64,000 nt of DNA, taken from contig JASHRG010000030.1 of the NCBI GenBank assembly GCA_030037495.1, positions 1 to 64,000 of the forward strand, in the 5' to 3' direction. Positions 35,180-42,782 of the stretch are shown one piece after another; the stretch's first letter is position 1, and each line of letters starts with the position of its first letter. Source of the DNA: Microcaldota archaeon (GTDB lineage Archaea; Micrarchaeota; Micrarchaeia; Micrarchaeales; Micrarchaeaceae). The translations under genes and the position numbers were made by a program. Below the pieces are notes generated by a model. It was not told where the DNA came from. It saw only the letters and a list, made by a program, of their open reading frames with translations, and did no database searches.

Positions 35180-35731
35180 TTGCTATGTAGACTTATGCAG
35201 TCCCCTGATTATGCTCCCGTGGAACAAAAGCTTTTTGAAAATATGAGAAGGCTCGCCAAAAAGCTGCCGCGATTCAAAGACGGAAGGATTAACTACAGAA
35301 GCTCAAAGATCGCGCCTGTGGTAACCGTGTTTGTTTCGTACAGAGGGAAAATCCTACTGCTGAAAAGGAGCAGTAAGGTGCTAAACTACAAAGGAAAATG
35401 GAACACGGTTGCGGGTTACATAGACGAGTACGTCCATGTAAGGGACAAGATGCTTGCAGAACTGGGCGAGGAACTAGGTTTGAGCCTAAATAACATAACG
35501 CTGCTAAAGATAGGCAATACATTTGTACTTGATGACAGGAAAATAGGTAAGAAATTTGTCACCCACCCCGGGATGGCATTCGTGAGGAAAAAACCAAAGG
35601 TAAAGCTGGACGTGGAGCACACGGAATACAGATGGATATATCCCCAGGCGCTGAAGAATTTTGATACAGTGCCAAAGCTGTCGGTCAGCCTTAGAAATGC
35701 TAAAAATGGAAAATACCTGTTTAGGTACTAG
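35180..35731 (+). CDS. NUDIX hydrolase
   Basis: GKWNTVAGYIDEYVHVRDKMLAELGEELGL Nudix box. Confidence 0.85.
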   Translation: MLCRLMQSPDYAPVEQKLFENMRRLAKKLPRFKDGRINYRSSKIAPVVTVFVSYRGKILLLKRSSKVLNYKGKWNTVAGYIDEYVHVRDKMLAELGEELGLSLNNITLLKIGNTFVLDDRKIGKKFVTHPGMAFVRKKPKVKLDVEHTEYRWIYPQALKNFDTVPKLSVSLRNAKNGKYLFRY

Positions 35732-37074
35732 GGCACAAGCCTGTCCGGGGTTCTTGGGAAGAGCGTTGCCTCCCTTATGTTTGATATTCCAAGGAGCTTC
35801 ATGGTGAATCTCTCTATTCCAAGGCTGAATCCCCCGTGTGGCGGAGCCCCGTACCTAAAGAACTCTGTAAACCATTTAAGGTTCTCAATGTTGTAGCCCT
35901 TGAGCTTCACCTGCTCAACTATCTTTTCATATCTGTGCTCCCTCTGGCCCCCGCTGCTAAGCTCAACTCCCTTGTAAAGAAGGTCCGTGCTCCTTGCGTA
36001 TGTCGGGTCTTCATCAACCCTCATCACGTAGAAGGGCTTTACAGCGAACGGAAACCTATTGATGAATACAAAATCGGACTTGTATTTCTCTCTTGCATAT
36101 TCGCCCAGCGCTATCTCTCCTTTCTTGTCATAGTCCTCCTGGCCCCTTTTCGGGTGCAAGCCTTTCTTTTCCAAAATGTCATACACTTCAGGGAATTCCA
36201 GCACTGGGAACGGCGTCTTCGGGGCCTTAAAATCAGCATCAAAGAGCTTCAGCTCCTCCCCGCATTCTGCTACAACTCCCTTTATTGCGCTCGCAACCAT
36301 CTCCTCCTCAATCTTCATCACATCTCTTTCATCATCTATGAAGGACATTTCAGCAGCACATGTCCTGTGCTCTGTCATGTGGAATGGCGTATTGCTCTGC
36401 TCCGCCCTCCAGCTAGGCCCTATCTCGTAGATCTTCTCGAACCCTGCCAGCATGAGCAATTGCCTATGCAACTGCGGATCCTGCCTTAGAAATGCGTCCT
36501 TTCCGAAATGCTTGAGCTTGAATACCTCGCTTCCTCCCTCTGCAGAGACTCCCATGAGGCTTGGCGTGAACGTCTGCATGAACTTTTGCGAGTAGAGGTA
36601 CCTTTGGAAACCCTCCATAAGCTTTGACTGTATCACAAAGATCGCTGCCTGCTTTGGGTTCCTCAGATCAAGCGCCCTCCAGTCTAGCCTCTTGTCAACG
36701 TTTGTCTCAATGCTGCCCTCTATGTCGATCGGAGAAGCTCCCATGGGCCTGCTCACCACGGTTATCTTGCTTGGTATTATCTCTGCGCCCAGGGCGCTCT
36801 GGATCTTTTCAGGGACGGTTCCATCAACAATCACAAAGTAATTCGGCGCAAGCTCCTCGGTAGCCTTTACTAGCTTCTTGTCTATCTTCTCATTCAGCGC
36901 TGTTATCTGGATAACCCCTGTTATGTCCCTCACCCAGATGAACCTGCCGGTCTTGAGCTCCTTTACCCTGCTTACCCTGCCTGCTATCCTTATCTTGCTT
37001 CCAGGCGTCTTCGCAGAATCCTTAATGTAGTCTACTCTCATCATCGTGTTCACAATTCTATTTATCTGCTCCAA
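35728..37074 (-). CDS. aspS: Aspartyl-tRNA synthetase (archaeal type)
   Basis: GGSEVFKLKHFGKDAFLRQDPQLHRQLLMLAGFEKIYEIGPSWRAE, GGFSLGIERFTMKLLGISNIREATLFPR. Confidence 0.92.
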   Translation of the reverse strand: MEQINRIVNTMMRVDYIKDSAKTPGSKIRIAGRVSRVKELKTGRFIWVRDITGVIQITALNEKIDKKLVKATEELAPNYFVIVDGTVPEKIQSALGAEIIPSKITVVSRPMGASPIDIEGSIETNVDKRLDWRALDLRNPKQAAIFVIQSKLMEGFQRYLYSQKFMQTFTPSLMGVSAEGGSEVFKLKHFGKDAFLRQDPQLHRQLLMLAGFEKIYEIGPSWRAEQSNTPFHMTEHRTCAAEMSFIDDERDVMKIEEEMVASAIKGVVAECGEELKLFDADFKAPKTPFPVLEFPEVYDILEKKGLHPKRGQEDYDKKGEIALGEYAREKYKSDFVFINRFPFAVKPFYVMRVDEDPTYARSTDLLYKGVELSSGGQREHRYEKIVEQVKLKGYNIENLKWFTEFFRYGAPPHGGFSLGIERFTMKLLGISNIREATLFPRTPDRLVP

Positions 37075-38670: not shown

Positions 38671-38701
38671 TAAATAGCTTTCTTTCTATATTCTAGTAGA
38701 G

Positions 38702-39433
38702 TTGGGTTGTTTCTTGAAAGACAACGAGGTAGTGTTCCTTAACTCAGTTTTCTTTGTCATAGGCTTCACGCTAGTCTTTTCCATTGTTGGCATACTCTTC
38801 CAGACCCTGCTTCTTCACATATCATACCAGGCAATGGAAGTGGTAAGGGTAATCGGTGGCCTGATAATACTTGCATTTGGGCTGTTGCTGATGGCTTCAG
38901 CATGGTATGTCATACCCTTCTTCGCAACAGAGCACAAGATCCGCTTCAAGAGGCTTGAGAACAGCTATGTATCATCGCTGTTGTTCGGGGTTGGCTTTGC
39001 GCTCGGCTGGACCCCCTGCGTTGGCGCAATACTTGGCGCGATATACACCCTGGCGGCAACACAGCCAGGGCTTGGCTTCCTTCTTTTGATGGCTTACTCG
39101 CTTGGCCTTGGCATCCCGTTCCTGATATTCGGGGCCTTCATGTCAAGGCTCACAGACTTCATGAAGAGGATACGCCTGTTCCTAAAGTACTTCAATGTGA
39201 TAGGGGGACTGTTCCTTGTTGCAATGGGGATCCTAGTGATTACAGGGTACATAGGTGAATTAGCCGTATTCCTTGTAGGCACAAGCGGTTCAATGTCGTT
39301 CAGCGAACAGCTAAATTTCCTCTTTGCCATATTTGCCGGTGTGTTGACATTCCTGTCACCGTGCATACTTCCGCTGCTCCCTGCCTACATATCGTACATG
39401 GCGGGCACAACCGCCCAAAAGGCAAGTAGATGA
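38702..39433 (+). CDS. CcdA/DsbD-type thiol-disulfide membrane protein, apparently circularly permuted
   Basis: GVGFALGWTPCVGAILGAIYTLAA (TM4-like) internal; FAGVLTFLSPCILPLLPAYISYMAG (canonical TM1) at C-terminus; 6 TM. Confidence 0.82.
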   Translation: MGCFLKDNEVVFLNSVFFVIGFTLVFSIVGILFQTLLLHISYQAMEVVRVIGGLIILAFGLLLMASAWYVIPFFATEHKIRFKRLENSYVSSLLFGVGFALGWTPCVGAILGAIYTLAATQPGLGFLLLMAYSLGLGIPFLIFGAFMSRLTDFMKRIRLFLKYFNVIGGLFLVAMGILVITGYIGELAVFLVGTSGSMSFSEQLNFLFAIFAGVLTFLSPCILPLLPAYISYMAGTTAQKASR

Positions 39434-40533
39434 AGAAACAAAACAACGTGTATATTGCAGTGTTCGGGGTCATAGCGCTGATAATAATAGCAGCAGCAGT
39501 ATCTACGCTGTTCTTCAACCAGAGCGCGGCTCCAAGCACGGCTTCGCTCTCGCTTGCAAACCTCACGAACTACGGCCCAGCGCCAAACATTGTTGGTATA
39601 AGCGCATGGATAAACTCGCAGCCATTGAACATTACACAGCTAAGAGGAAAGGTAGTCCTTGTAGACTTCTGGACCTATTCATGCATCAACTGCATAAGGA
39701 CCATACCGTATCTAGAGGCGTTGCAGAAGGAATACGGCAACTACGGCCTTGTAATAATAGGCGTGCACACTCCTGAGTTCCAGTTCGAGCACAATCTAAG
39801 CAACGTGGAAGCGGCCGTAAAGAGGTTCAACATAACATACCCGGTTGCACTGGACAACAACTACTCAACATGGGATGCGTATGGCAATGAGTACTGGCCA
39901 GCGGATTACCTTATAGACAAGAACGGTGACGTGAGGTACATCTCATTCGGCGAGAGCCCCACCAGCTTCAACCAGACGCAGCAGGTTATAAGGGAGCTGC
40001 TTGAGAACGCGAGCTACACGCCACCATCAAGCCTTGTTGATGTGAAAGACATATTGAACTTCACGCAGCAGATAAGCCCTGAGATGTATCTGGGTAGCCA
40101 GGAAATTGCCCAGGGCCGGATCAACTACTTCTCAAGCGAAGACAACATAGCTCCTGGGCAGAACACAACCTACCAGGCGCTGAACATAAGCATGAACGAC
40201 ACGATATACTTAGCTGGAACCTGGTACAGCGCACCAGACAGTATGATAGCAGTGAACAATTCAAGGCTGTTCCTGATATACAGGGCCAGCAGGGTGAACG
40301 TAGTAGCTGGCGTGTCGGGGGCAAACTACAGCACCATAAGAATAACCCTTGATGGAAACAGTGTCCCATCACAAGAGCTTGGTGGCGATGCAAGCATTGT
40401 AGACGGAAACGCGATTGTCAATGTAAGCTCATACAGACTGTATAACATCGTGTCAACGCAGTCATACGGATGGCACACGCTTGAGATAAACGCCAGCAGG
40501 GGCTTCAGGATATACACGTTTACATTCGGCTGA
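39430..40533 (+). CDS. Thioredoxin-like protein related to DipZ C-terminal region
   Basis: LRGKVVLVDFWTYSCINCIRTIPYLEAL, GVHTPEFQFEHNLSNVEAAVKRFNITYPVALDNNYSTWDAYGNEYWPADYLID; terminal IYTFTFG. Confidence 0.85.
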   Translation: MKKQNNVYIAVFGVIALIIIAAAVSTLFFNQSAAPSTASLSLANLTNYGPAPNIVGISAWINSQPLNITQLRGKVVLVDFWTYSCINCIRTIPYLEALQKEYGNYGLVIIGVHTPEFQFEHNLSNVEAAVKRFNITYPVALDNNYSTWDAYGNEYWPADYLIDKNGDVRYISFGESPTSFNQTQQVIRELLENASYTPPSSLVDVKDILNFTQQISPEMYLGSQEIAQGRINYFSSEDNIAPGQNTTYQALNISMNDTIYLAGTWYSAPDSMIAVNNSRLFLIYRASRVNVVAGVSGANYSTIRITLDGNSVPSQELGGDASIVDGNAIVNVSSYRLYNIVSTQSYGWHTLEINASRGFRIYTFTFG

Positions 40534-41426: not shown

Positions 41427-42782
41427 CTATGGCTCCAGCCTGTTCATTGTTCTTGGGAAAGGAATAGCATCCCTTATTGTCTCAAGCTTGAGCATCCACC
41501 TGCAGAGCCTCTCTGAACCCATGCCAAACCCTGAATGGGGAACGCTTCCATACTTTCTTAATTCAAGATACCATCTGTAGTCCTTCTCCTTGAGCTTTTG
41601 CTCCTTGAGCCTTCTTACCAGTTCATCATAGCTCTCAACCCTTTCGCTCCCTCCAAGTATCTCGCCTATCCCCTCAGGAGCAAGCAGGTCAGAGTCAAGC
41701 ACTGTTCTTGGGTCCTTTTGGTTTATCTTCATGTAAAATGCCCTCATCTCCTTTGGCTGGTTTACCAAGAATGTCGGCTGCTTCCTCTCTTTCATCAGCG
41801 TCTTCTCCTCGTCAAGGCCTATGCTGTCCCCCCACTTCAGACCAAGCTCCTTGAGCGCCTTCTCGTATGTCATCTTCTCAAAAGGCCCCTTTATCGCAAG
41901 CAGGTCTTTTGGGTCCCTGTTGTACTTTTTCAATAGCTCGGGATGCTTCTTTGCCATCTGGTGGCATAGGTGCTCAACCAAATCCCCCATGAGCCTCATG
42001 TTCATCTCAAAGTCAAAGAATGCCTCCTCAGGCTCAAGCTGCCAGAATTCTGTTAAGTGCCTTGGCGTCCTGCTAGGCTCTGCCCTGAAAGATGGGGCAA
42101 ACGCATAAACAAGAGGGTATCCCTCTATCATCGCCTCGCTGTAGAGCTGCGCTGTCTGTGAGAGATAGGCCTTCTTGTCAAAGTATTTTACCTCAAAGAC
42201 CGTGGATCCGCCTTCAGCAGCAGATGATGTGAACATAGGAGGCTGCACCTCAAGGAATCCCATGCCATCAAGGAAGCTCCTTGCCTCCTGCATCAGATAG
42301 GCCTTGAACCTCAGCACATTCACTATGTGCTGTGATCTCACCCACAAATGCCTCACATCAAGAAGGAACTCTGTGCTCTGGTCCTTCCCTATAGGGAACG
42401 CGTCTCCCCTGAAATAGGTAACAAGCTCTTTTGCCCTTATCTCGTAGCCATCAGGGGCCCTTTCGTCCTTGGCAACCGTGCCATGAGCATAAACCACTGA
42501 TTCAAGGAACACGTCGTTCGCGTCCTTCCAGGTCTTTTCCGTGACATCGTCCTTTTTCACAGCGCACTGCACTATCCCCGTGCCGTCTCTTATTATGACA
42601 AAGGCGAGGTTTGTGCTCGCCCTTTGTCTATGCACCCATCCCCTTACAAAGACCTCTTTTCCAACATGGTCCCTAAGGTCTGAGATCTTAGTTATTCTGC
42701 TCTCGCTCCTGGAAAGCGTGTCCTTGAGCAGTTCATCGAGCTTTAACATCAGATTACCAAAAAGCCATGGGTTAATCGGCAA
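41427..42782 (-). CDS. asnS: Asparaginyl-tRNA synthetase
   Basis: OB fold VRGWVHRQRAS, GLGxSERLCRWM-type motif 3 (GFGMGSERLCRWML), APEGIGEILGGSERVESYDEL. Confidence 0.9.
   Translation of the reverse strand: MPINPWLFGNLMLKLDELLKDTLSRSESRITKISDLRDHVGKEVFVRGWVHRQRASTNLAFVIIRDGTGIVQCAVKKDDVTEKTWKDANDVFLESVVYAHGTVAKDERAPDGYEIRAKELVTYFRGDAFPIGKDQSTEFLLDVRHLWVRSQHIVNVLRFKAYLMQEARSFLDGMGFLEVQPPMFTSSAAEGGSTVFEVKYFDKKAYLSQTAQLYSEAMIEGYPLVYAFAPSFRAEPSRTPRHLTEFWQLEPEEAFFDFEMNMRLMGDLVEHLCHQMAKKHPELLKKYNRDPKDLLAIKGPFEKMTYEKALKELGLKWGDSIGLDEEKTLMKERKQPTFLVNQPKEMRAFYMKINQKDPRTVLDSDLLAPEGIGEILGGSERVESYDELVRRLKEQKLKEKDYRWYLELRKYGSVPHSGFGMGSERLCRWMLKLETIRDAIPFPRTMNRLEP

Follow-up and report, generated by a model that had tools for sequence, protein, structure and literature searches.

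A CcdA-type membrane protein with helix order 2-3-4-5-6-1 in Micrarchaeota and other lineages

The window, a stretch of 64,000 nucleotides from a Micrarchaeota archaeon, encodes a six-helix membrane protein of the CcdA/DsbD type whose helices follow the order 2-3-4-5-6-1, the canonical first helix (TM1) standing at the C-terminus. Judged by its sequence, the window protein is a permuted CcdA variant, since the canonical 1-2-3-4-5-6 order with an N-terminal TM1 is absent; we consider it highly likely that it is a genuine permuted CcdA, most likely CcdA-folded, which passes reducing equivalents to a DipZ-type thioredoxin. Permuted CcdA would then be one of the few cases in which a multi-helix membrane protein has been circularly permuted in nature, and it is conserved in archaeal groups.

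Helix order and limits of the gene

The features of the locus, with helices in canonical numbering, are these:

38675-38677, + strand: in-frame TAG upstream of the permuted ccdA, which excludes an N-terminal TM1
38714-39433, + strand: circularly permuted CcdA, order 2-3-4-5-6-1 (PF02683, 5vkv alignment, near relatives)
38735-38803, + strand: TM2, the first helix, limits approximate (aligned to 5vkv from chain residue 41)
38840-38905, + strand: TM3, limits approximate (model helix 38-64, hydropathy)
38963-39052, + strand: TM4 with GWTPCVG, redox Cys102 at 39017-39019 (invariant in alignments)
39068-39136, + strand: TM5, limits approximate (model helix 118-141)
39191-39271, + strand: TM6, limits approximate (model helix 143-177, 5vkv alignment)
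39272-39304, + strand: new TM6-TM1 linker, predicted extracytoplasmic, without K/R in the window protein
39305-39397, + strand: TM1 at the C-terminus, FLSPCILPLLP, redox Cys217 at 39362-39364 (PF02683 7-41, 5vkv 3-36)
39430-40533, + strand: membrane-anchored TlpA/DipZ-type thioredoxin (WTYSCINC) with a PF17991 domain (2hyx match)

Hydropathy, the helices of the model and the alignment to Thermus thermophilus CcdA (5vkv, E 4.7e-29) all give six transmembrane helices. In this alignment residues 9-188 correspond to chain residues 41-211 and residues 200-233 to chain residues 3-36, two blocks in swapped order that together cover all six helices. The same exchange is seen with PF02683 (DsbD_TM): residues 12-179, in the 243-aa numbering, match profile positions 45-214, and a second stretch, located by a search of the window's own genome, matches positions 7-41 downstream, at 39323-39427, at the C-terminal end. 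A sequence-only reading of this DNA had proposed the permuted order and named two swapped PF02683 matches as one way to check it; these were found, and together with 5vkv they bear the proposal out. The window protein scores 42.9 bits against a curated cut-off of 27.1 (other permuted members: 50.5, 64.8, 32.4 and 42.6 bits) and is the single PF02683 match of its genome at E up to 0.001. Routine annotation can hide such a permutation, Pfam giving a family name and two stretches.

The redox cysteine motifs of canonical CcdA, SPCxLPLxP in TM1 and TPC in TM4, are present at Cys217 and Cys102, and both cysteines with their motifs are retained in all 75 of the 75 permuted ORFs, as the sequence-only reading had held for the window protein. 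This conservation bears on the idea that the protein is a non-redox transporter, e.g. an ArsG-like permease or a nickel/cobalt efflux protein of the same superfamily, a hint of which may be seen in weak NCBIfam hits for ArsG (37 bits versus a cut-off of 200) and for a nickel/cobalt transporter; we regard it as improbable, given that both redox cysteines are invariant, that they are the sole cysteines of the window protein and that the adjacent gene encodes a DipZ-type thioredoxin.

The open reading frame at 38702-39433 on the + strand stands as first described, with its end at 39433, but TTG 38702 is probably not its start: the aligned starts of relatives lie just before the first helix and match a second TTG at 38714 (M-KDNEVVFLNSV), which these alignments favour as the likelier start, giving a protein of 239 rather than 243 aa. 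The in-frame stop at 38675-38677 is present as claimed, no TM1 is encoded at the N-terminus, and the gene upstream is a divergent DEAD-type helicase, so that there is no space for a hidden TM1. A seven-helix protein, in which the C-terminal segment is an extra copy and TM1 also lies upstream, thus deserves almost no credence: besides the upstream stop in the window, some relatives have a stop directly 5' of the ATG that precedes TM2, and a search for seven-helix homologues returned none, TM1 being at both ends in 0 of 158 ORFs. Two class II D/K/N-type tRNA synthetases (PF00152) flank the locus a few kb apart, at 35728-37074 and 41427-42782 of the window, both on the - strand.

Conservation and distribution of the permuted order

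Of 60 genomes searched, 12 have a full-length homologue, counting that of the window itself; those of the 11 relatives are 60-70% identical and share the helix order. One relative is the Micrarchaeota MAG REEA36, by which the order of the window can be placed. A phylum-wide search recovered one contiguous full-length permuted match in each of 21 genomes of the window's Micrarchaeota order, a count that leaves out partial matches (contig ends, fragments), and so supplied the related archaeal genomes that had been suggested as a check. Strong matches from other families of the class consist of a core match and a separate TM1 match upstream, i.e. the canonical order, and the boundary between permuted and canonical order within the class is clean by lineage. 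Permuted ccdA is under purifying selection, third codon positions taking most of the substitutions in the moved TM1 as in the core.

Because the window belongs to a 44-contig draft genome, one might suspect an assembly error, a frameshift or a pseudogene, that is, a broken normal ccdA to which a TM1 fragment has been joined by chance. We give this a negligible probability: dozens of independent assemblies have the same order in uninterrupted, full-length frames, and the third-position bias in substitutions likewise speaks against it. Assembly error and frameshift are excluded by the independence of these assemblies, which span two domains of life and include a single-contig chromosome with the permuted order; a frameshift or a normal TM1 upstream was looked for and not found. 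In one genome that has a full copy, a second fragment with permuted ccdA and a thioredoxin gene lies on a 952-bp contig (L014, G044:C55), a strain variant and a duplicate both being possible.

In a scan of public genomes, with each ORF classed by separate core and TM1 profiles, the permuted order was found in Micrarchaeota, one Aenigmatarchaeota MAG, Woesearchaeota/Nanoarchaeota and Chloroflexota. Of 238 Nanobdellota/Woesearchaeota genomes, 24 encode permuted CcdA, and so do at least 24 of the 349 genomes surveyed from Chloroflexota, a phylum in which most genomes encode canonical CcdA and some encode both forms. All fetched loci together gave 158 distinct ORFs (78 permuted, 79 canonical, one cut by a contig end), and no TM1-core-TM1 intermediate was among them. 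Viral contigs yielded 15 pattern matches, none of them a relative.

Other phyla were surveyed with a junction profile (TM6-linker-TM1) at E up to 1e-15, a threshold which the weakest permuted forms could escape; on known genomes, permuted matches reached 60-114 bits and spanned nearly the whole junction, while canonical matches scored at most 65 bits, mainly over the TM1 part. No match was obtained in 240 genomes from the phylum of a Gracilibacteria MAG (L037), in 200 from that of Nitrosopumilus (L031) or in 248 from that of Amycolatopsis (L073), and of six matches in 249 genomes of Bacillota (phylum of Peribacillus L092) one was real, of Chloroflexota type. This last gene (L176:991-1788, genome G1699) may reflect transfer or misbinning.

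Several individual loci merit description. The permuted CcdA of the Aenigmatarchaeota-labelled MAG (L015:5001-5723) groups firmly with those of Micrarchaeota, for which transfer or labelling are both possible causes. In two permuted CcdAs of Chloroflexota (L063:4524-5549 and L075:1-888), TM3 and TM4 are separated by a further hydrophobic stretch of ~90 residues, which may form more helices. In a genome of the Nanobdellota set (G844), permuted and canonical CcdA genes lie ~5 kb apart (L173:2033-2782 and L173:7327-8037), each followed by a thioredoxin-like gene of its own. Immediately upstream of their permuted gene, two Woesearchaeota have a divergent CcdA paralogue of canonical order (L020:3202-3891 and L021:3263-3946), whose TM1 motif is APLGAVCVLPLYPG rather than SPCxLPLxP.

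Kinship with canonical CcdA and repeated origin

Reordered to the canonical arrangement, the window protein reaches 50% identity with canonical CcdA, and Woesearchaeota permuted proteins reach up to 66% identity with canonical ones. The canonical TM1-TM2 loop (e.g. AGTTISDKYSNETKTKIFLNSV in L025) appears severed mid-loop in the permuted forms, its left part being similar to where the permuted protein ends and its right part to where that protein begins.

In an unrooted maximum-likelihood tree of 85 reordered sequences, permuted proteins form a Micrarchaeota-type group (support 100/100) and a Woesearchaeota-type group (95/96), both of which sit inside a mainly canonical clade of archaea and Patescibacteria. 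The permuted proteins of Chloroflexota fall outside this clade, some of them beside canonical proteins of Chloroflexota. A single clade of all permuted proteins was rejected by the AU test (delta lnL 127, p 1e-57), also for TM2-6 alone (p 9e-5), and since this constraint fails, the tree indicates that the same permutation arose at least twice; the same test rejects neither a single origin within archaea (p 0.44) nor one within Chloroflexota (p 0.19). The canonical order is presumably ancestral, since the other sampled phyla show this form, and the permuted gene may have originated by tandem duplication followed by fusion and trimming. Taken together, we think it probable that the permutation, with its break between TM1 and TM2 and its new join between TM6 and TM1, occurred independently in DPANN archaea and in Chloroflexota, with repeated events within either group conceivable, and that the protein remained functional, the TM1-TM2 link being dispensable for electron transfer. 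Permuted and unpermuted CcdA are close relatives that occupy the same operon slot and are separated by a permutation that took place at least twice.

Topology, electron transfer and relation to known systems

Mean K+R counts over 42 sequences agree with cytoplasmic positions for both termini of the permuted protein. The loops predicted to be cytoplasmic, TM3-4 and TM5-6, average 5.3 and 3.6 positive residues, the TM4-5 loop 0.02, the new TM6-TM1 linker 0.4, the TM2-3 loop 1.1 and the two tails 1.6 and 1.2. The earlier argument that moving TM1 keeps the topology consistent agrees with this concentration of K/R in predicted cytoplasmic loops and their scarcity in the TM6-TM1 linker. Permuted CcdA would thus start and end in the cytoplasm, canonical CcdA outside, and in the permuted chain the outer end of TM1 would be tethered to TM6, the inner end being free, opposite to the canonical arrangement.

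We infer that TM1 occupies its native slot of the fold. AlphaFold models reached a pTM of 0.70 and a pLDDT of 75; with two models, from 24 and 42 sequences, Foldseek gave no significant match to any PDB entry, CcdA included. That the models have no PDB match leaves TM1 packing unsupported, and this, along with a TM6-TM1 linker whose length varies between lineages, lends something to the proposition that TM1 is exchanged between two subunits in a domain-swapped dimer, the change of order then marking a new quaternary structure. We judge this unlikely, considering that the linker is short (~11 aa in the window), that the joined ends lie on the same membrane side and that canonical CcdA has been described as a monomer (PMC7329351). 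The permuted protein also bears on the model, set out in a review, of CcdA as the smallest elevator-type transporter, with an O-shaped scaffold and a moving pair proposed, on limited evidence, to be TM1 and TM4 (PMC7329351). A natural CcdA with TM1 anchored at its other end makes this model directly testable; if the reading is true, a tether on the outer side alone is enough for TM1, the proposed elevator arm, and the TM1-TM2 link would consequently be dispensable for transmembrane electron transfer.

The gene downstream overlaps ccdA, its start and the ccdA stop sharing ATGA at 39430-39433, and encodes a Redoxin + PF17991 protein that matches the C-terminal domain of Mycobacterium tuberculosis DipZ (2hyx, E 3.8e-52). 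In DPANN, the same kind of partner gene, with FWTYxCINC, lies downstream of permuted ccdA genes and of many canonical ones at comparable distances, and a permuted (L173) and a canonical (L175) locus share the gene order Trx-lipoprotein, ccdA, DipZ-type gene. The notion that the permutation caused the thioredoxin gene to be separate was rejected, canonical relatives also having a separate downstream gene. On the single-contig Anaerolineales chromosome CP070811.1 (L057), permuted ccdA belongs to a cytochrome c maturation operon, where it comes after genes for an ABC ATPase, CcmB and a cytochrome c assembly protein and ahead of a redoxin gene. In the window, the DipZ-type thioredoxin encoded next door is the likely electron acceptor of permuted CcdA. 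Reducing equivalents would, we infer, enter from cytoplasmic thioredoxin, be relayed across the membrane by the Cys102-Cys217 dithiol/disulfide of TM4 and TM1, and pass from this pair to the DipZ-type protein encoded by the overlapping gene.

Permuted and canonical CcdA are alike in their six homologous helices, in the cysteine motifs of TM1 and TM4, in size and in having a thioredoxin partner; they differ in that TM1 is N-terminal and the protein N-out/C-out in the canonical form, whereas TM1 is C-terminal and the protein predicted N-in/C-in in the permuted one. The DsbD beta domain of E. coli belongs to the same PF02683 superfamily and carries electrons from the cytoplasm to the outside, in canonical order and fused to periplasmic alpha and gamma domains. 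In M. tuberculosis DipZ, a CcdA of canonical order is fused to Redoxin + PF17991. The window locus resembles DipZ in that a CcdA module stands beside a Redoxin + PF17991 module (2hyx), but has separate overlapping genes (38714-39433 and 39430-40533) and a permuted CcdA. Circular permutation in nature is familiar from soluble proteins and, to our knowledge, very rare in polytopic membrane proteins. No earlier report of a permuted CcdA or DsbD was found in the open-access literature; the nearest precedent found is VKOR/DsbB, called the first case among alpha-helical membrane proteins (PMC4555120). Like permuted CcdA, VKOR and DsbB are membrane thiol-redox proteins related by circular permutation, a relation hypothesised from structures for two distant families (PMC4555120), whereas permuted and canonical CcdA belong to one family, are up to 66% identical once reordered and point to a repeated origin.
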